A program made the translations under genes and the position numbers. A stretch of DNA of 64,000 nucleotides, taken from the NCBI RefSeq assembly GCF_005405125.1, contig NZ_BJDL01000007.1, forward strand, positions 1 through 64,000, in the 5' to 3' direction. This document shows positions 2,648 through 30,331 of the stretch, one piece after another; the first letter of the stretch is position 1; each line of letters starts with the position of its first letter. Source of the DNA: Lactiplantibacillus songbeiensis (GTDB taxonomy: Bacteria > Bacillota > Bacilli > Lactobacillales > Lactobacillaceae). Below the pieces are notes generated by a model, which did no database searches, had not been told where the DNA came from, and worked only from the letters and a program-made list of their open reading frames with translations.

Positions 2648-3511
2648 TTACTTCTGATTTTCATTAATTTTTCCATTTTGCAAATTGGTCAAAATCTGCG
2701 CCGCTTGACTAGCTAGCTGATGCTCCTCATTATAAGCGGCGACAGCACTGGGGGCGTACTGATAAGCGCCCGTTACTAAAGTTTGTTCATAGAATGGCAA
2801 ATAGGGGAGCTGGTGATCACGGGCGATTTGAATCGCTGCTTGCCAGTCGAAGGGCACTTGGCGATAACTAATATCTAGGAGACCATGATCATCGAACGTC
2901 AATAGTAAATACATCGCGCGCTGTTGTCGCAATTGTGGATGAACGGCGGTCGGTAGGCCCACGGTGCCCGCGTTTAAAATTAATTGGCCGTTAGTTGAAT
3001 ACCGCATTAGTGGTTGGTGGGTGTGAGCGTAAATCACAATATCCGGATCACCAACTGTCGCTTGATCGAAATTAACTTGAGCTTCAGTTGGCGCCAAGGT
3101 ATGGCCACTGGCGAAGTTCGGTAAAACGTGTTGCAGCCGAATCTTCAGCTCACCGACTTGCTTAGTAACGGTCAGTGGTAAGTGTACTAATTGCTCAAAG
3201 TGGGTGGTCGATAATTGGGCGCGGTCATAAGCTGTTAAAATCGTGGCCATAATTTGTTTCGGTTGGTTGAACGTTGTGGGTGTCGCGGTTAAAACTTTAC
3301 GATAGTTTTGTTCGTGATTACCTAACACGTAAACGGTGGGGGCCACTTGATCAAGTAAGGTCATACACCGTTCGGCTTCCGGTCCACGCACGGTGATGTC
3401 ACCGACCGTCCAAAATTCGGTTACGGCTTGTTGTTTGGCATCGGCCAGGACAGCTGTTAGGGCCGTGGCGTTGCCATGAATATCTGAGAGTACGGCAATT
3501 TTATGTAACAT
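2648..3511 (-). CDS. metallophosphoesterase (YfcE/MJ0936-like)
   Basis: A 287-residue calcineurin-like phosphoesterase. Metal-binding motifs appear in the canonical order: SDIHGN near residue 9, VGDITVRG near 37, LGNHEQ near 63, a distal TLAP..AHTHQP near 165-170, and a closing LNAGTVGLP. In this family the motifs bind two divalent metals and hydrolyse phosphoesters or nucleotides. The C-terminal 60 residues extend beyond the core. The length is normal for the group with an extended C terminus. Ribosome site GGAGGC precedes the ATG. The true substrate is unknown. Confidence 0.85.
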   Translation of the reverse strand: MLHKIAVLSDIHGNATALTAVLADAKQQAVTEFWTVGDITVRGPEAERCMTLLDQVAPTVYVLGNHEQNYRKVLTATPTTFNQPKQIMATILTAYDRAQLSTTHFEQLVHLPLTVTKQVGELKIRLQHVLPNFASGHTLAPTEAQVNFDQATVGDPDIVIYAHTHQPLMRYSTNGQLILNAGTVGLPTAVHPQLRQQRAMYLLLTFDDHGLLDISYRQVPFDWQAAIQIARDHQLPYLPFYEQTLVTGAYQYAPSAVAAYNEEHQLASQAAQILTNLQNGKINENQK

Positions 3512-3676
3512 GAGTAATAGCCTCCGTAAGTGCGATTAAAGTTTGTTATCGGCTTAATCGTTTCTTTGAACTTTTGTTAACTGGCTGTAACGTGGTTGCA
3601 ACTTGACTCTGGTAAGCTTGGTCATTGGAACGAAGTAATCTATTAGCACGTATATTCAAGCCAATTCGTTTCACGT

Positions 3677-3709
3677 CGCCGTAATCTCGCTGATTACGAC
3701 GGTTTTTAT
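3677..3709 (+). terminator. hairpin terminator upstream of the aro leader
   Basis: CCGTAATC tcgct GATTACGACGG followed by five T. No gene on the plus strand precedes it closely, so it may end a short leader or sRNA transcript. The 305 bases from 3512 to 3816 otherwise hold only the aro promoter. Confidence 0.6.
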
Positions 3710-3753
3710 TTTACCTTTTTTTAGTGATGAATAAAATTAAAATGAAATTAGTA

Positions 3754-3782
3754 TTGACAGCATTAAATGAGAATGTTTTAAT
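3754..3782 (+). promoter_or_regulatory. promoter of the aromatic amino acid operon
   Basis: TTGACA at 3754-3759 and TTTAAT at 3777-3782, separated by 17 bp. The expected transcription start is near 3790, about 27 bases before the leader peptide. Confidence 0.75.
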
Positions 3783-3816
3783 GTAAATATCAACTTAACG
3801 GAAAGGAAAGATAATT

Positions 3817-3873
3817 ATGACACAACTTTGGTCAACTAACGCGTATTATTATGGCTTTTATTACTTTAGGTAG
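3817..3873 (+). CDS. aromatic leader peptide of the aro operon
   Basis: An 18-codon reading frame encoding MTQLWSTNAYYYGFYYFR. Eight of 18 residues are aromatic (five Tyr, two Phe, one Trp), clustered at the end as YYYGFYYF. It has a good ribosome site (GGAAAGGAAAG) seven bases before the ATG and stops at TAG. It lies between the promoter and three hairpins, the last of which is an intrinsic terminator. This is the classical layout of ribosome-mediated attenuation as in enterobacterial trp and pheA leaders. The coding capacity, position and composition are direct observations; the regulatory role is inferred. Confidence 0.82.
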   Translation: MTQLWSTNAYYYGFYYFR

Positions 3874-3889
3874 CGTCCGCATTAGTTTC

Positions 3890-4047
3890 TTAGATGCGGG
3901 CGGTGAACACGCCCGTGTCTAAGGTGAGCAAAGTCATTTTTGTCTTTGACCAGCTAGACACGTGAAGGTCTAGCTGGGAATAAACATCATTTATTCCTGC
4001 ATGGTTTTTAAAGCCAGCTAGATTTTCTAAATCTAGCTGGCTTTTTA
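3890..4047 (+). promoter_or_regulatory. attenuator of the aro operon (competing hairpins)
   Basis: There are three hairpins after the leader peptide stop. Hairpin 1 (3890-3921) pairs GCGGGCG with CGCCCGT. Hairpin 2 (3950-3977) pairs CCAGCTAGA with TCTAGCTGG. The terminator (4011-4047) uses the same two words again: CCAGCTAGA at 4014-4022 and TCTAGCTGG at 4032-4040. TCTAGCTGG at 3969-3977 can therefore pair with 4014-4022 and disrupt the terminator. This would let a ribosome stalled on Tyr/Phe codons switch the fold. Confidence 0.78.
4011..4047 (+). terminator. attenuator terminator
   Basis: Arms AGCCAGCTAGATT and AATCTAGCTGGCT with a short loop, followed by TTTTTAT. It lies 28 bases before the first structural gene of the operon. 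Confidence 0.88.
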
Positions 4048-4075
4048 TATTCTAATTCGTTTTTAATTTTAAGTA

Positions 4076-5563
4076 GTGGTTAACATGCATAAGAGAGCAT
4101 TATCGTTGAGTTTATACCTGAATTACTTCGTTCATGGGATTGGGTTAATTATTTTAACGCAAAATATGCAAGCGTTAAGCCAGCATTGGCAAACGCCAAT
4201 AGCCACCGTTTCCTACGTGGTTTCGGGAATTGGGATGGGGCGCTTGTTTGCCTACTTCCTATTTGGCAAATTATCTGATCGTTATGGTCGTAAGTTATTT
4301 ATTAATATTGGGATGTTGAGTTACTTAGTCTTCTTCATTGGTATGGCGTTTGTGACTAATATTCAGGTGGCCTATGCCTTAGCTATTCTAGCGGGGATTG
4401 CCAACTCGGCTTTAGATTCTGGGACCTACACGACCTTCATCGAAATGGGTGGTCGGCAAGGATCCGCTAACGTGTTGATTAAAGCCTTCATGTCCGCTGG
4501 TGAATTTATCTTACCATTATTGATTGCCAGTCTAGAAACCACGCGGCAATGGTACGGCTGGTCCTTTATGTTAGCGGCCGTCGTTTTGATCGTCAATGTG
4601 GTCTTACTGAATCGGCAGAAATTTCCAGTACGTAACCAGGTCGATGCAAGTGCCCAAGCGGCGGGTCAACAATTATCCAAAGCCCGTCGTTGGTTAGCCA
4701 GTGCTAGCTTGGCTGGTTACGGCTACACGTCAATGGCTGTGATGATCTTATACACGCAATGGATCAGTTTATTCGTGACCAGCGAATTGAACTACTCGCG
4801 TGTGTTGGCACATTTATTACTATCACTATACAGTATCGGGTCCATTACTGGCGTGCTCGTGACGTTCTGGTTGCTACATCGTGGTGCAGCTGAAAATAAA
4901 GTCTTACTGACGATGAACCTGAGCTCGTTAGTCGCATTACTAGTCGTGTGTTACACGAGTTGGCCATGGTTATCGATCATCGCATCATTCGTTTTTGGCT
5001 TTACTGCTGCTGGTGGCATGATGCAAGTGGGGTTGAACTTATTTATCCGGCTTTACCCCCAAGCTAAAGGAACTGTGACCGGCGTCTTCTTCACTTTTGG
5101 TAGTATCGCGGCGTTCACGATTCCGTTGATTACCGGCTGGTTGTCGAAGCAAAGTATTGGCGCGGCGATGCGCTTTGATTTAGTGGTTGGCTTAGCTGGC
5201 GTGGCTTTAGTTGCTTTGGCCGTCTGGGCGTTAGGACCAACGAAGTCCTTAGCTCACGAACGGCAACATATTAATCAGATTGATCAACAGATCGTTCGGC
5301 TACTCAATCAACGGTTCGACATGGTCACCACGATTGGCGATTTAAAACAAGCTGAACAATTACCAGTCTTAGATCAGCAACGTGAAGATCGCGTTTTAGA
5401 TCAAGTTGCACAAAAGAGTCAAACCGCTGCCCATACGCCATACTTACAAGCAATTTACCAAGCGATTATGTTGAATTCGCGGGCGTACCAAAGTGCCCGT
5501 AAAACGACGACTGAAATGACAACGAGATCCACTCAGCATAAGGAGGAATTAACACATGATTAA
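4076..5563 (+). CDS. MFS transporter fused to chorismate mutase (AroQ type)
   Basis: A 495-residue two-part protein. Residues 1 to about 390 form a 12-helix major facilitator; the loop after helix 2 has the MFS signature GKLSDRYGRK. Residues about 393-480 read INQIDQQIVRLLNQRFDMVTTIG and continue with PVLDQQRED. This is the AroQ chorismate mutase helix with its Arg/Lys/Glu active-site pattern. The mutase converts chorismate to prephenate, the substrate of TyrA encoded downstream. The transporter substrate is unknown and may be an aromatic or shikimate-type compound. The start is assigned to GTG at 4076, with ATG at 4085 as an alternative; neither has a clear ribosome site. Its 3' end overlaps aroC. 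Confidence 0.8.
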   Translation: MVNMHKRALSLSLYLNYFVHGIGLIILTQNMQALSQHWQTPIATVSYVVSGIGMGRLFAYFLFGKLSDRYGRKLFINIGMLSYLVFFIGMAFVTNIQVAYALAILAGIANSALDSGTYTTFIEMGGRQGSANVLIKAFMSAGEFILPLLIASLETTRQWYGWSFMLAAVVLIVNVVLLNRQKFPVRNQVDASAQAAGQQLSKARRWLASASLAGYGYTSMAVMILYTQWISLFVTSELNYSRVLAHLLLSLYSIGSITGVLVTFWLLHRGAAENKVLLTMNLSSLVALLVVCYTSWPWLSIIASFVFGFTAAGGMMQVGLNLFIRLYPQAKGTVTGVFFTFGSIAAFTIPLITGWLSKQSIGAAMRFDLVVGLAGVALVALAVWALGPTKSLAHERQHINQIDQQIVRLLNQRFDMVTTIGDLKQAEQLPVLDQQREDRVLDQVAQKSQTAAHTPYLQAIYQAIMLNSRAYQSARKTTTEMTTRSTQHKEELTHD

Positions 5564-6725
5564 TTACGTGACGGCCGGTGAATCACATGGGCCCCAATTA
5601 ACTGGCATTTTAACCGGGATTCCAGCCGGATTAACCTTAGATATCGCGGCCATTAACACCGGCCTAGCTGCGCGGCAAGGTGGCTTTGGCCGCGGTAATC
5701 GGCAACAAATCGAGCACGATACGGTGACGGTTACTGGTGGCTTACGTCATGGTGTGACTTTGGGTTCCCCGATTGCGTTAACGATTCAAAATCGGGATCA
5801 TGCGCATTGGCACGCGATTATGAATCCGACTAGTCCAGCGACCGCTGACAATACCTTGCGGCAAGTCACCCGACCACGACCTGGTCACGCGGATCTCGTT
5901 GGCGGCATGAAATACGGTCACCGCGATCTACGGAATGTCTTGGAACGGTCATCTGCTCGTGAAACGGCCATGCGGGTGGCAATCGGTCAGATTTGTAAGC
6001 AATTATTAGCCCAACTCGGGATCGACTTAGTCGGCTACGTGCAACAGATTGGGCAAATCCAAGTTGATCCGCAAGCGAGCTTGTCAGTCACTGAATTGAC
6101 TCAAGCCATCGCACAAAACGATTTACGAATTACCGATAATGCGCAAGTTGATGATATTCACGACCTCATTACCGCGACTAAAAAAGCCGGCGATACACTA
6201 GGTGGCGTGATACGAGTGGTTGCCACTAATGTCCCAGCGGGCTTAGGTAGCTACACTAATTGGGACACTAAGTTGGATGGACAACTGGCAGCCGCCGTGA
6301 TGGGCGTCAATGCGATGAAAGGCGTTGAGATTGGCGATGGCTTTGCCGCGGCTGCGAGCTATGGCAGTCAGGTGATGGATGAGATCGATTGGGATGCTGA
6401 AAACGGATGGTCTCGGTTGACGAATCATCTGGGCGGCTTTGAAGGTGGCATGACCAACGGAATGCCAATCATTATTAAGGCGGCGATGAAGCCGATTCCA
6501 ACGCTTTACAAACCATTACAAAGTGTTGATATCCAGACGAAAGCGATTCAAAAGGCAAGCGTAGAACGCTCAGATACGACTGCCATCGTGCCCGCGTCAA
6601 TCGTTGTTGAAAGTGTTGTGGCGATTGAACTTGCCCGTGCGATTACAGCGACCTTTGATGGCAGCAACTTGAGTCGGTTACAAGCGATGGTGCAAGCTTA
6701 TCGCGCCGAACTCCAAGCGTACTAG
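5556..6725 (+). CDS. aroC: chorismate synthase
   Basis: A 389-residue enzyme that makes chorismate from EPSP with reduced FMN. Recognisable are the N-terminal GESHGPQLTGIL (signature 1), RPRPGHADLVGGMKYG, the RSSARETAMRVA motif (signature 2) and GGFEGGMTNG near the C terminus (signature 3). The length is normal for the bacterial form. It starts eight bases inside the preceding gene, behind a strong AGGAGG at 5541-5546, which implies translational coupling within the operon. Confidence 0.97.
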   Translation: MINYVTAGESHGPQLTGILTGIPAGLTLDIAAINTGLAARQGGFGRGNRQQIEHDTVTVTGGLRHGVTLGSPIALTIQNRDHAHWHAIMNPTSPATADNTLRQVTRPRPGHADLVGGMKYGHRDLRNVLERSSARETAMRVAIGQICKQLLAQLGIDLVGYVQQIGQIQVDPQASLSVTELTQAIAQNDLRITDNAQVDDIHDLITATKKAGDTLGGVIRVVATNVPAGLGSYTNWDTKLDGQLAAAVMGVNAMKGVEIGDGFAAAASYGSQVMDEIDWDAENGWSRLTNHLGGFEGGMTNGMPIIIKAAMKPIPTLYKPLQSVDIQTKAIQKASVERSDTTAIVPASIVVESVVAIELARAITATFDGSNLSRLQAMVQAYRAELQAY

Positions 6726-6728
6726 CCA

Positions 6729-7268
6729 ATGCAGATGCATACGTTAGGTCCCGCTGCTACTGATAGTTATGCGGCGGCGCAAACTTATAACCAATTGCCC
6801 GCAGTGACGCCGATGACGATTGTTGGTCACCCAAGCTTTGAAGCCATCTTGACCCATTTGGATCGCTACAGTGGTGATTATTTACTATTACCGGCGGCGT
6901 TCAAATCACCGGCGTTACAAGCAAGTTGGGGCGATGTCCACTATGCCTTGCTTGATAAGATGACGTTGACCCGTTGCTTTATGACGCAGTTGAACCCATT
7001 AGTGGTCGTGCAGCGATTGGATGCGGATAATCGCATCGGCTACACACATGCGGCGACGGCCCAACTCTTACAACGGATTGTCAGTCATGTCGACGTGCAA
7101 ACGGCGCCAAGTAAAGTGGCGGCTTATCAACTTTATCAAACCAATCAAGCCGGCTACGTTTTAACGAATGAAAAAAATGTCACACTAACGGCCAATGAAC
7201 GGGTGGTGAAACGTTTAACGCCCGCGATGGTCTGGTGTCTATATCATATTAAGGATGACGATGAATGA
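6729..7268 (+). CDS. prephenate dehydratase-like protein lacking key residues
   Basis: A 179-residue protein that begins HTLGPAATDSYAAAQ, matching the LGPxGTxSxxAA start of prephenate dehydratases. It keeps the overall PBP-like layout (a 45-residue first lobe, a THAAT segment where dehydratases have SHPQ). The ENTSSG substrate motif is replaced by AFKSPA and the catalytic TRF by TPA, and there is no ACT domain. Active dehydratases are normally about 270 residues. It may be a divergent enzyme (the BacA prephenate decarboxylase branch is a precedent for short members) or a non-catalytic relative. It sits between aroC and aroA and overlaps aroA by ATGA. Confidence 0.6.
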   Translation: MQMHTLGPAATDSYAAAQTYNQLPAVTPMTIVGHPSFEAILTHLDRYSGDYLLLPAAFKSPALQASWGDVHYALLDKMTLTRCFMTQLNPLVVVQRLDADNRIGYTHAATAQLLQRIVSHVDVQTAPSKVAAYQLYQTNQAGYVLTNEKNVTLTANERVVKRLTPAMVWCLYHIKDDDE

Positions 7269-8572
7269 AAAAATTAAACAGCCAACCCGCTAATGGTCTC
7301 CACGGTACATTGACGGTTCCTGGTGACAAAAGTATTTCCCACCGCGGCCTGATCTTTGGTGCAATTAGCCAAGGGACGACTACGTTAACCAACTTTTTAC
7401 CCGCTGATGATTGCTTGTCCACATTAGGTGCCATGCAAGCGCTCGGTGTTCAAATTGACCGGGAGGCAACGACTGTTCAGATAATCGGTCGCGGATTACA
7501 TGGCTTGACAGCGTCACACCATCCTTTAGATATGGGTAATGCTGGGACAGCAACGCGCTTATTAGCCGGCTTATTGGCTGGCCAACCTTTTGACAGTACA
7601 CTCATTGGTGATGACTCACTCAGTCAGCGGCCAATGGAACGGGTCCGTCAGCCATTAGCTACGATGGGTGCCAAATTGGATTTAGTGAATGGTCATTTAC
7701 CAATGAACATTCACGGCCAGCGTTTACATGCCGCCAATTACCAAATGACGGTCGCCAGTGCTCAAGTCAAAAGCGCGTTAATCTTAGCGGCATTACAAGC
7801 TGACCACCCAAGTACGATTATTGAAAAATTACCGACGCGTGATCATACCGAACGCTTACTGCAGGCGTTTGGTGGCGAGATTGCGACGGCAGCTGATGGA
7901 AAGACGATTACGGTTCAGCCGCAACCAAACTTGCGGGGGCAAGATGTGACGGTACCCGGAGACTTATCGTCAGCAGCCTTCTTTTTAACAGCGGCTAGCA
8001 TCGTGCCCGGTTCCCGCGTGCGATTGCACAATGTTGGTTTGAATCCCACGCGGACCGGTTTATTAACAGTATTGCAACGTATGGGCGGCGATGTCACGAT
8101 TACACCAACTGCTAGTACGGGTGAACCATTCGGCGATGTGACCGTAGCGGCGACTGAACTAAAGCCGATTACCTTGACGGCAGCTGATATTCCAGCGGTG
8201 ATCGATGAATTACCGTTAGTGGCGCTATTAGCGGCGACCGCTAATGGGGTCAGTCGAATTAGCGGTGCTGGTGAGTTACGGGTCAAGGAAACGGATCGCA
8301 TTGCCACGATTGTGACTGAATTACGCAAACTAGGCGTCGCGATTGAAGAACGCCCTGATGGTTTTGTAATTGACGGGCGGCCGGCTTGGCACGTCCAGAC
8401 GTCACAATTGGACAGTCACGGTGATCACCGCATCGGCATGATGATGGCGATTGCGGCGTTGCGGCTTCAGATACCGTTAACGTTGGCAAACTCGTCAGCC
8501 ATCAGTATCTCGTACCCGAACTTCTTTCATGATTTACAACAATTATTACCGGCAACGGAGGTATTGGCATGA
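7265..8572 (+). CDS. aroA: 3-phosphoshikimate 1-carboxyvinyltransferase (EPSP synthase)
   Basis: A 435-residue enzyme joining shikimate-3-phosphate and PEP. Motifs in order: VPGDKSISHRGLI, GNAGTATRLLAGLL, SLSQRPMERVRQP, VASAQVKSALILA, VPGDLSSAAFF, IDELPLVALLA, RVKETDRI and SHGDHRIGM. The GTATRL and RPM segments look more like class II (Gram-positive) enzymes than like the E. coli enzyme with GTAMRP. The ATGA overlaps with both the upstream and downstream genes point to strict coupling. Confidence 0.96.
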   Translation: MKKLNSQPANGLHGTLTVPGDKSISHRGLIFGAISQGTTTLTNFLPADDCLSTLGAMQALGVQIDREATTVQIIGRGLHGLTASHHPLDMGNAGTATRLLAGLLAGQPFDSTLIGDDSLSQRPMERVRQPLATMGAKLDLVNGHLPMNIHGQRLHAANYQMTVASAQVKSALILAALQADHPSTIIEKLPTRDHTERLLQAFGGEIATAADGKTITVQPQPNLRGQDVTVPGDLSSAAFFLTAASIVPGSRVRLHNVGLNPTRTGLLTVLQRMGGDVTITPTASTGEPFGDVTVAATELKPITLTAADIPAVIDELPLVALLAATANGVSRISGAGELRVKETDRIATIVTELRKLGVAIEERPDGFVIDGRPAWHVQTSQLDSHGDHRIGMMMAIAALRLQIPLTLANSSAISISYPNFFHDLQQLLPATEVLA

Positions 8573-9666
8573 CGCAAGTATTGATTAAAGGACTCGGGCT
8601 GATTGGCAGTTCGCTGGCGCTAGCGATTCGTCAAGCGCATCCAGCCGTCACGATTGTGGGCAGTGACGTGGTTCCAGCAACTCTTGATTACGCGCAACAA
8701 AGTCAGCTCGTTGATAAGGTGACAACTGATTTCTCAACTGCGGCAGTGACCGCCGATGTGATCATTTTAGCTGGGCCGGTCGCCGTGATTTGTGACGACC
8801 TAGCGACTTTAGCCAAGCTGCCGTTGAAACCGCAAGTGGTGATTACCGATGTTGGGAGTACGAAGCAGACGGTGTTAGCGGCGGCCAAACCATTACAACA
8901 ACGGGGGTTAGCCTTTGTGGGCGGGCATCCAATGGCTGGTTCGCATAAATCGGGCGTGAGAGCGGGCCGCGCTGATTTATTTGAAAATGCGTACTACTTC
9001 TTAGTGCCCGGCTTAGCACCAACCACTGCGGTCCAGCAGTTGCAGGTCTTATTAGTGGGCACGCATGTCAAATGGCTCACGGTGACACCTAAGCAACATG
9101 ATCGGTTAGTCGGTCAGCTCAGTCATTTGCCACATGTGGTGGCCGCAGCGCTAGTGAATCAGACGCAACAAGCGTTGGCCGATTCACCGCTAGGGTTACG
9201 GTTGGCGGCGGGGGGCTTTAAAAGCATTACCCGCATCGCGTCGGCGGACCCGACCATGTGGCAGTCGATTTTATTGAATAACGGGCAAGTCGTAACCAGC
9301 CAATTACAGGATTATATCGACCAGTTAGCTGCAATTAAAGCCGCGATTGAGCAGCAAGATGCGACTAAAATCAACGCGTTTTTCGCTGCAGCGAAGACCA
9401 CCCGTGATCATTTAGGACCGGAACACCTGGGAAGCTTGCCTAACTTTTTCGATTTATTTTTAAATATTCCGGATCAGACCGGTGCGATTGCTGATGTGAC
9501 GCAACGTTTGGCTGCCGCGGGATTGAGCTTAGTGAATATTCATATTTTAGAGATTCGTGAAGACGTCGATGGGGTCTTACAAGTCACGTTCGGCGATGCC
9601 GCCACACGTGATCAAGCGGCAACCCTATTACAACAAGCAGATTATCAGATTGTGAGGAGAAGTTAA
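8569..9666 (+). CDS. tyrA: prephenate dehydrogenase
   Basis: A 365-residue NAD-dependent enzyme converting prephenate to 4-hydroxyphenylpyruvate, the tyrosine precursor. The N-terminal Rossmann motif is KGLGLIGSSLA. The catalytic HPMAGSHKSG segment lies near residue 125, and VGQLSHLPHVVAAAL follows. The last 80 residues (FLNIPDQTGAIADVTQ, then NIHILEIRE) form an ACT domain, so feedback control by tyrosine is likely. It overlaps aroA by ATGA and is followed at two bases by aroK. Confidence 0.95.
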   Translation: MTQVLIKGLGLIGSSLALAIRQAHPAVTIVGSDVVPATLDYAQQSQLVDKVTTDFSTAAVTADVIILAGPVAVICDDLATLAKLPLKPQVVITDVGSTKQTVLAAAKPLQQRGLAFVGGHPMAGSHKSGVRAGRADLFENAYYFLVPGLAPTTAVQQLQVLLVGTHVKWLTVTPKQHDRLVGQLSHLPHVVAAALVNQTQQALADSPLGLRLAAGGFKSITRIASADPTMWQSILLNNGQVVTSQLQDYIDQLAAIKAAIEQQDATKINAFFAAAKTTRDHLGPEHLGSLPNFFDLFLNIPDQTGAIADVTQRLAAAGLSLVNIHILEIREDVDGVLQVTFGDAATRDQAATLLQQADYQIVRRS

Positions 9667-9667
9667 G

Positions 9668-10192
9668 ATGGAAGCAATTTTAATTGGATTTATGGGTAGT
9701 GGCAAAACGACGGTTGGTCGGCTATTGGCGGACCAATTAATGACCCAACATGCTGATTTGGATGACATGATTGTTGACCGGGCCGGCCAAGCCATTACGG
9801 CGATTTTTGAGGAACATGGCGAAGGGTACTTCCGGCAACTCGAACAACAAACGTTGCGCGGGGCCTTGGCGCAACCAGGCGTGCTTTCGACGGGTGGCGG
9901 GACGCCCACGATTCCGGCTAATGCGGCAATTTTGACGGCTAGTCCAGTGCCGGTTATTTGTCTAGCCGCTGACGATGCCACGATCCTCGACCGTGTGTCC
10001 CATGATACTAGCCGGCCATTGGTTAATGACTTGGATACAACGGCATTATTGGCACTGAAACATCATCGTGCCCCTTTATACGAAGCGGCGGCGGACTTGG
10101 TGATTCAGACCGACCAATTGACCCCGAACGAGATTGTGGCGACCATTCAAGACTGGTTAAGTCAACCCGCACGCCGGACTGCTCAAGGTTAG
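9668..10192 (+). CDS. aroK: shikimate kinase
   Basis: A 174-residue P-loop kinase that phosphorylates shikimate with ATP. Walker A is GFMGSGKTTVG. The shikimate-binding residues lie in HADLDDMIV, the FRQLEQQTL segment and STGGGTP. It starts right after tyrA (AGGAGAAGTTAAG then ATG) and is the last gene of the operon. No separate terminator was seen; a long B-type repeat hairpin starts about ten bases after the stop and may serve. Confidence 0.95.
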   Translation: MEAILIGFMGSGKTTVGRLLADQLMTQHADLDDMIVDRAGQAITAIFEEHGEGYFRQLEQQTLRGALAQPGVLSTGGGTPTIPANAAILTASPVPVICLAADDATILDRVSHDTSRPLVNDLDTTALLALKHHRAPLYEAAADLVIQTDQLTPNEIVATIQDWLSQPARRTAQG

Positions 10193-30084: not shown

Positions 30085-30331
30085 CAATAACTTTGCGACT
30101 CTGACAAGGACTAGTAGTCGCTGCTGCTTTTCAGAAACTCCGTGGTCGTTGCAAACGGGGATGCAGTGGTGGCGAACTCACCTTCGAGTCTTCCGGCTGA
30201 AGCAATTGTAGGTACGGACGTGGTTTCGCGTTAAGAAAACTCAAGAGGCCACGCTAGTCGTGGAATCATAGGTGGTACCGCGGAACCTCGTTTCGTCCTA
30301 TAAGCGCTTTTTGCTTATAGGATTTTTTTGT
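30085..30331 (+). promoter_or_regulatory. T-box leader of leuS
   Basis: The T-box sequence AGGTGGTACCGCG is at 30270-30282. It follows a long stem I (closed by GCGACT/AGTCGC near 30095-30120) and precedes a terminator. Uncharged tRNA-Leu should bind and favour the antiterminator. I could not assign the specifier codon with confidence. Confidence 0.9.
30295..30329 (+). terminator. T-box terminator of leuS
   Basis: GTCCTATAAGC / GCTTATAGGAT followed by T7; the 5' arm overlaps the antiterminator partner. Confidence 0.88.

Follow-up and report, generated by a model that had tools for sequence, protein, structure and literature searches.

A seven-segment leader RNA as the probable ribosome-mediated attenuator of an aromatic amino acid operon in Lactiplantibacillus songbeiensis

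Introduction

The locus described here raises the question of how an operon for aromatic amino acid biosynthesis is controlled in a lactic acid bacterium. T-boxes are the first guess for regulation of this kind in Lactobacillales. In the window, the whole stretch of 64,000 nt of Lactiplantibacillus songbeiensis DNA that was analysed, a promoter is followed by a short ORF rich in aromatic codons and by a terminator located ahead of the first structural gene. A first-pass annotation had read this arrangement as ribosome-mediated attenuation, a reading which is supported here by conservation of the ORF, by family-wide paired changes in the RNA and by the agreement between leader codons and the genes that follow them. 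We conclude that the element is very probably a ribosome-mediated transcription attenuator acting through a relay of switching helices, with ribosome stalling, timing and the size of the response being inferred without expression data.

Results

The leader ORF

The promoter, the 18-residue peptide with eight aromatic residues and the terminator, all claimed previously, are read directly in the sequence (Table 1). The -35 TTGAC and -10 TTTAAT are unchanged at all 17 loci of the genus, only the last -35 base varying; a promoter scan of the window did not report this promoter, the scan rule demanding an A at -10 position 2. Among 2777 ORFs of 10–40 codons having ATG, GTG or TTG starts on both strands of the window, none equals the leader ORF in the number of aromatic residues within a 9-residue stretch (7, the next best having 6), and it is also the most aromatic of the 56 window ORFs that combine an ATG with a Shine-Dalgarno-like site (7 per 9 residues, next best 4). 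Aromatic content this extreme indicates that the ORF does not arise by chance.

Table 1. Position of the leader elements and downstream genes in the window
Feature	Position	Strand	Basis or remark
Promoter	3754..3782	+	TTGACA 3754-3759, 17-nt spacer, TTTAAT 3777-3782; read directly in sequence
Shine-Dalgarno-like site GGAAAGGA of leader ORF	3800..3807	+	first seven bases invariant in 17/17 genus loci
Leader ORF MTQLWSTNAYYYGFYYFR	3817..3873	+	ATG 3817, stop TAG 3871-3873; 18 codons, eight aromatic residues
Main sensor codons TAT TAT TAT (codons 10-12)	3844..3852	+	in genus, TAT TAT for first two in 17/17; third Tyr or Phe
P0 5' strand (codons 13-14, GGC TTT)	3853..3858	+	consensus structure; covariation and swap tests
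Segment 1, immediately 3' of stop codon, partner 2	3874..3882	+	pair counts, staged folding
Segment 2, partner 1 or 3	3888..3902	+	swap test, pair counts, staged folding
Segment 3, partner 2 or 4	3910..3924	+	swap test, pair counts, staged folding
P0 3' strand (AAAGTC), in 3-4 spacer	3930..3935	+	consensus structure; covariation and swap tests
Segment 4 (CCAGCTAGACACG), partner 3 or 5	3950..3962	+	repeat words, swap test, pair counts
Segment 5 (GTCTAGCTGG), partner 4 or 6	3968..3977	+	repeat words, swap test, pair counts
Segment 6, terminator 5' arm, partner 5 or 7	4010..4025	+	terminator scan, swap test, genus covariation
Segment 7, terminator 3' arm and U-run	4029..4047	+	terminator scan, swap test, genus covariation
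MFS transporter fused to chorismate mutase (type II)	4085..5563	+	PF07690, PF01817
aroC, chorismate synthase	5556..6725	+	PF01264
Prephenate dehydratase-like protein, 179 aa (tentative)	6729..7268	+	structure-model match
aroA, EPSP synthase	7265..8572	+	PF00275
tyrA, prephenate dehydrogenase	8569..9666	+	PF02153, PF20463
aroK, shikimate kinase	9668..10192	+	PF01202

The first-pass annotation had named conserved aromatic codons, third-position substitutions and paired hairpin changes as observations that would support attenuation. Frame and aromatic codons are indeed preserved at 17 of the 17 Lactiplantibacillus loci that have the operon, with a peptide core of YY(Y/F)G(F/L)xYFR, and the third codon position is the most variable in the genus (115 differences, compared with 52 and 68, in 11 distinct 33-mers). 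As a coding signal the third-position excess does not extend beyond the genus, being absent family-wide, where position 2 is the most variable and the amino acids themselves change. The Tyr and Phe components of the proposed Tyr/Phe/Trp leader are conserved; however, a Trp codon occurs upstream of the core at just 2 of the 17 genus loci and a triple sensor was therefore rejected. AGG is the last sense codon in all 17 genus leaders and occurs a single time among the 2040 codons of the operon.

The downstream operon

The third gene of the operon has a 179-aa product that matches no Pfam family at E≤10, and a profile search against PDB sequences was set aside, as the best E was only 0.41. The AlphaFold model (pLDDT 89.9) has prephenate dehydratase 3mwb as its best PDB match (E 1e-8, TM 0.47), but among the next matches are periplasmic binding proteins that share this general fold, some with higher TM, so the designation prephenate dehydratase-like, which rests on a predicted structure, remains tentative. 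By inference the protein has no room for an additional ACT domain, and this would agree with regulation through a leader that senses Phe.

A long orthologue of the fusion gene (≥67% identity) is present in 17 of the 21 genus genomes, that of the window included, and all 17 have the leader, while the leader model finds nothing in the remaining four. The fusion protein is 98% identical to that of L. dongliensis, the nearest among the genomes compared. Leaders in other family genera are likewise followed by MFS and chorismate mutase matches.

The leader RNA and neighbouring elements

Three hairpins and a terminator had been described previously; these are present, but the RNA is larger, consisting of seven segments together with an additional helix, P0. 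Each segment is able to pair with the next, giving either helices 1:2, 3:4 and 5:6 (read-through) or helices 2:3, 4:5 and 6:7 (termination). The two 9-base words noted in the first-pass annotation do each occur twice, CCAGCTAGA at 3950 and 4014 and TCTAGCTGG at 3969 and 4032. The terminator is a stem of 16 pairs at 4010-4044 followed by a U-run. RNA of 3874-4050 has a folding energy of -78.1 kcal/mol compared with -41.8 (sd 3.7) for shuffled sequences (z -9.9), and the minimum-energy fold of the window leader RNA consists of 2:3, 4:5 and 6:7. P0, which is part of the consensus structure of a model built from the 17 genus leaders, joins codons close to the end of the ORF to the spacer that separates segments 3 and 4.

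Two other elements were observed in the window. A small-RNA-like element with its own terminator-like hairpin is located at 3627-3710 on the plus strand, upstream of the aro promoter, and has no credible Rfam match. Its 27-base core, GCACGTATATTCAAGCCAATTCGTTTC, occurs once and without mismatch in 21 of 21 genus genomes, including the four that lack the aro leader, and at ≤2 mismatches in 8 of 201 family genomes, all of them Lactiplantibacillus and none of another genus. At 30092-30303, also on the plus strand, an ordinary T-box leader precedes an ORF which by eye resembles leucyl-tRNA synthetase.

Distribution of related leaders

At E 0.1 or better, the model of 17 genus leaders matches 169 of 397 family genomes from 26 of 40 genera; for 163 of these genomes the E-value is 0.001 or better, and 228 of the 397 are without a match. 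A broader model matches 230 of 395 genomes of the order, family included, in 59 of 80 genera at E 0.01, and a third matches 35 of 398 genomes of the class at E 0.001, 30 inside the order and 5 outside, one of the latter being Sporolactobacillus. E-values of the models used here are rough. A short core pattern is found, among the matches listed, in at least 93 contigs, mostly Streptococcus, with Ruoffia, Globicatella, Vagococcus, Sporolactobacillus, Levilactobacillus, Lacticaseibacillus, Lentilactobacillus and Lactiplantibacillus also represented and the few remaining names probably due to chance. The earlier view that such a leader is unexpected here is thus not upheld, given the proportion of sampled genera with a match and the Firmicutes precedents in the accessible parts of PMC5794164 and PMC2965389.

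Individual loci were read at 150 listed family matches (17 in the genus, 133 others), weaker matches being left out, and at 60 order-wide loci picked for variety from the listed matches followed by 30 more, 240 in total. By a loose criterion the leader ORF is present at 150 of 150 loci from the family search and at 60 of 60 and 30 of 30 of the further loci. The usual stop is lacking at 5 of the 240 (L238, L262, L263, L274 and L287), where the ORF extends a few codons into segment 1, and the ORF is one codon shorter at a few loci, for example L233, L255, L307 and L308. Relatives of the relay leader are widespread in lactic acid bacteria, some being, as judged from their codons, tuned to other amino acids.

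A second leader of this class, MSLPLNQKTQTSFYFWYFR (E 2.4e-4), was observed in the window's own genome (locus L302, contig C30, 11091-11235, minus strand), followed by a gene for a PLP-dependent aminotransferase; its peptide has the stretch SFYFWYFR.

Coordinated changes in the helices

Covariation is seen for the termination helices in the genus alignment, where 0 of 500 shuffles reach their score, whereas the read-through helices are nearly invariant among the 17 sequences and their covariation is not above that of shuffles (271 of 500 reach the score). Among 64 aligned family leaders, helices 1:2 and 3:4 have 93.7% of cells paired with two-sided change in 10 of 15 pairs, and helices 2:3 and 4:5 have 94.5% of cells paired with two-sided change in 17 of 24, 0 of 500 shuffles reaching either result; this alignment was fitted to a model containing 2:3 and 4:5 but lacking 1:2 and 3:4. 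The paired changes anticipated in the first-pass annotation are thus found for these four helices in the family and for the termination helices in the genus, but not for the read-through helices at genus level.

In a swap test on 55 leaders of <80% identity, own partners outpair swapped partners in each of the six relay helices (every time with 0 of 2000 permutations) and ten other segment pairs are without signal. Helix 4:7 also passes, because 4:5, 5:6 and 6:7 do. The set was derived from the 150 loci by removing five without a terminator by the rule used (L091, L093, L100, L101, L155), four without a 4:5 hairpin (L050, L060, L068, L102) and two with a long spacer, leaving 139 leaders which were thinned to 55, plainly poor automatic segment calls (e.g. 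L086, L094, L109, L134) being kept. Because segments 2-7 come from predicted hairpins, the test is tilted towards 2:3, 4:5 and 6:7; some relatedness also remains among the leaders.

P0 was assessed in an 82-row alignment (82 sources giving 82 matches, with L235 represented twice and L236 not at all) fitted to a model that contains P0. Pairing is retained in 89.3% of cells and none of 500 shuffles reaches the covariation score; both sides are changed in 6 of 6 pairs, a result matched by 62 of 500 shuffles. The swap test for P0 gave 0 of 2000 for all leaders together and also for Lactobacillaceae (35) and other families (47) taken separately. For the four branched-chain leaders in the set, pairing with their own spacer amounts to -9.1 kcal/mol, compared with -4.4 kcal/mol with spacers of aromatic leaders from outside the family. 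Coordinated changes across relatives therefore support all seven predicted helices, the six of the relay and P0.

Leader codons and the genes that follow

The 150 family loci comprise 112 before aro-type genes, 7 before a prephenate dehydratase-like gene, 30 before a gene for an ABC substrate-binding protein and 1 before none of the genes probed. All 112 aro-type leaders have Tyr within their last 11 residues, compared with 0 of the 37 that belong to the prephenate dehydratase-like or ABC transporter type. As the transporter peptides are nearly alike, distinct peptides provide the fairer count, and here Tyr occurs in 66 of 66 aro-type and 0 of 13 other peptides (Fisher p 3.8e-15). The substrate-binding protein belongs to Pfam ABC_sub_bind, and its sole NCBIfam match, TrpX, is below cut-off (313.9 of 390). 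Phe without Tyr was rejected as a general rule for this ABC transporter, holding for 30 of 30 leaders in Lactobacillaceae but not throughout other families, where Tyr also occurs in leaders of this transporter type (e.g. L205, L252).

Outside the family, 60 loci and then 29 were read, with one further locus in the window's own genome. Products scanned at these loci are shikimate dehydrogenase, 3-dehydroquinate synthase, DAHP synthase, a transketolase (cut, and below cut-off), class I/II aminotransferase, ABC_sub_bind proteins, amino-acid-type ABC transporters and one 2-hydroxyacid dehydrogenase; aroC at L288 was assigned by resemblance. Eleven loci of one family (f5, by inference Aerococcaceae) precede genes of branched-chain metabolism and have Ile, Leu and Val as sensor codons, as in IIISIIIR and LLLISVIR. 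At three of these (L219, L220, L236) threonine ammonia-lyase, acetolactate synthase and branched-chain aminotransferase score above NCBIfam cut-offs, at L217 a substrate-binding protein has a branched-chain model as its best match, below cut-off, and at L223, L234, L237, L310, L311, L315 and L319 the assignment is by resemblance only. Ile, Leu or Val replace the aromatic codons in 7 of 7 ilv-/liv-type leaders and in 0 of 53 others, with four more found later, and peptide composition agrees with gene type at 60 of 60 loci of the first non-family set, the gene types having been assigned by the analyst. Leader codons thus track the predicted function of the gene: aro genes are preceded by Tyr and Phe codons, the prephenate dehydratase-like gene by Phe codons with no Tyr, and ilv-/liv-type genes by codons for Ile, Leu or Val.

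A proposed relay and its folding models

We propose that the leader ORF would be translated while the RNA is being made. With charged Tyr- and Phe-tRNA available, a ribosome at the stop codon would mask segment 1, and 2:3, 4:5 and 6:7 would form, leading to termination. When Tyr- or Phe-tRNA is short, the ribosome would stall on the Tyr or Phe codons and mask the 5' strand of P0, leaving segment 1 free; 1:2, 3:4 and 5:6 would then form, terminator arm 6 would be held and RNA polymerase would read through. In the absence of a ribosome, P0 would form around 2:3 and cross 3:4, which should favour termination, although this is the least supported step.

Staged folding was performed with ribosome footprints applied around the P site; a ribosome covers approximately 15 nt on each side of it. 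With RNA available up to segment 4, the window leader is predicted to form 2:3 without a ribosome, 1:2 and 3:4 with the ribosome stalled at the sensor codons, and 2:3 with the ribosome at the stop codon. Among the 55 leaders, 3:4 is formed at this stage in 24 without a ribosome, 40 with a stalled ribosome and 12 with the ribosome at the stop codon; corresponding values for 5:6 at the segment-6 stage are 19, 35 and 20. Against the switch, once segment 6 has emerged the window leader folds into 2:3 and 4:5 in all three ribosome states, and for the full window RNA at equilibrium the termination conformer is at -66.8 kcal/mol compared with -35.3 kcal/mol for read-through. As the termination conformer is both more stable and favoured at the segment-6 stage, read-through must be kinetic, the kinetics being inferred and not simulated. 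The barrier along a nested path from 1:2 to 2:3 is approximately 8 kcal/mol, which allows no more than a race. Without a ribosome, 34 of 55 leaders form 1:2 at the segment-4 stage and 18 of 55 form P0, and since 1:2 is kept in so many, termination in the absence of translation is a prediction only. In staged folding P0 does not appear in the minimum-energy folds of the window itself. The folding models back only in part the dependence of the fold on ribosome position, and the mechanism is the weakest part of the case.

Discussion

The tracking of genes by leader codons, combined with the coordinated changes in the helices, points to ribosome-mediated attenuation. The requirements of such an attenuator, a leader ORF and mutually exclusive helices extending to the terminator, are met at the level of sequence, while translation and the response to tRNA charging are inferred. 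TnaC is a nascent peptide which arrests the ribosome when free ligand is bound, and it could be supposed that the leader peptide similarly arrests its ribosome on a free amino acid or pathway intermediate, the RNA relay reading the arrest. In favour of this, the peptide shows strong conservation at its end: the -2 codon is TTT at 145 of the 150 family loci, and a few positions ahead of this codon there is a small residue, most often G, S, D or N. However, the small residue is explicable by pairing in P0, aromatic-to-aromatic changes account for 6338 of 25047 nonsynonymous codon differences, and the fixed peptide expected of ligand-sensing arrest is not met, as sensor residues differ by class (Tyr/Phe, Phe without Tyr, Ile/Leu/Val) within one RNA family whose frame is constant. 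We consider arrest by free ligand to be improbable.

Even less weight can be given to two further explanations. Control by a T-box, a riboswitch or a protein-bound antiterminator, with the ORF incidental, has precedent in that T-boxes govern such genes elsewhere, as for the B. cereus group tyrosine operon (PMC2494555, accessible part), but the T-box model (RF00230) finds nothing in 3500-4150, whether at gathering level or with E allowed up to 5, and each locus that was read has an ORF, the codons of which agree with the downstream gene; we regard this explanation as very unlikely. The terminated leader could also be a trans-acting small RNA to which attenuation is secondary. The Enterococcus homologue is filed as an sRNA in Rfam (RF02863), and the E. 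faecium RNA is listed at 195 nt with two transcripts on a Northern blot in the available portion of PMC5593968. A terminated leader would itself be detected as a short RNA, however, and the location of 149 of 150 family loci before biosynthesis or uptake genes, as well as conservation of the pairings that compete with the terminator, leaves a trans-acting role with hardly any probability. Attenuation by a translating ribosome therefore remains the reading that we retain.

The relationship with RF02863, 'Enterococcus sRNA 2410', was investigated further. Of 20 non-Lactobacillaceae loci tested, 6 (L244, L248, L242, L230, L240, L206) match this family at gathering level, with up to 177 bits, the match beginning within the last six codons of the ORF, compared with 0 of 20 Lactobacillaceae and Sporolactobacillus loci tested. 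The window leader reaches no Rfam family at gathering level and its low-score list is of interest only for RF02863, a weak full-length match (22.1 bits, E 0.26) below the gathering score of 61 bits. RF02863 is homologous to the leader family, but its model lacks most of the leader ORF and it is filed as an sRNA gene. It is the structured half of the leader element, and the sRNA description in Rfam looks incomplete.

A more general proposal, which we put forward with some reserve although we judge it somewhat probable, is that these leaders constitute a modular, order-wide relay family. One RNA frame would be gated by the ribosome at both ends, P0 being masked by a stalled ribosome and segment 1 by a terminating one; it would permit read-through only with the ribosome stalled on the sensor codons, and be retargeted among Phe, Tyr, Trp, Ile, Leu and Val by changes in the codons and their P0 partners. 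The family would be a main regulator of aromatic amino acid supply in Lactobacillales, including Streptococcus, and the Enterococcus RNA would be its terminated product. No description of the family was found in searches of open-access literature, nor in the accessible part of PMC11109978; subscription papers and preprints were not covered, so a description there is not excluded.

Leader-peptide attenuation is presented here as widespread, homologous and retargetable in Lactobacillales. The codons label genes of unsure specificity, indicating Phe for the Lactobacillaceae ABC transporter and the prephenate dehydratase-like gene, and a new reading is offered for the Rfam sRNA RF02863. The proposed design, in which the position of a ribosome would be passed over >100 nt to RNA polymerase, is open to mutation tests.

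Enteric leader-peptide attenuators (trp, phe, his, ilv) consist of a short ORF rich in codons for the product, alternative hairpins and an intrinsic terminator. The window leader has all three but differs in being a relay of seven segments, compared with three or four in the enteric systems, in having an ORF that ends ahead of segment 1, which a ribosome at the stop codon would mask, and in pairing sensor codons with a distant spacer through P0. According to the accessible part of Naville and Gautheret 2010 (PMC2965389), to their knowledge no such system had been shown beyond Proteobacteria and Actinobacteria, ermC apart; a His leader is proposed there for bacilli. In the accessible text of PMC5794164, the S. 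aureus ilv-leu operon has a leader peptide with Ile and Leu codons and a terminator, with genetic support, but its peptide is 26 aa and a different antiterminator takes up the U-tract, in contrast to the window relay. The same text cites predicted branched-chain leader peptides in Lactococcus lactis and Streptococcus, which share with the present family the order, the leader peptide and, for some members, the branched-chain amino acids. The predicted leader peptide uORFC-13-1 before aroF in Acholeplasma (PMC8632094, in the part available) and the bacilli His leader are likewise amino-acid leaders predicted with terminators in low-GC Gram-positives and their kin, in other taxa and for other genes or another amino acid. 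Leader-peptide attenuation is therefore already known, Firmicutes included, and the assignment of the relay leader family to it rests on sequence features, the response to tRNA charging being inferred.
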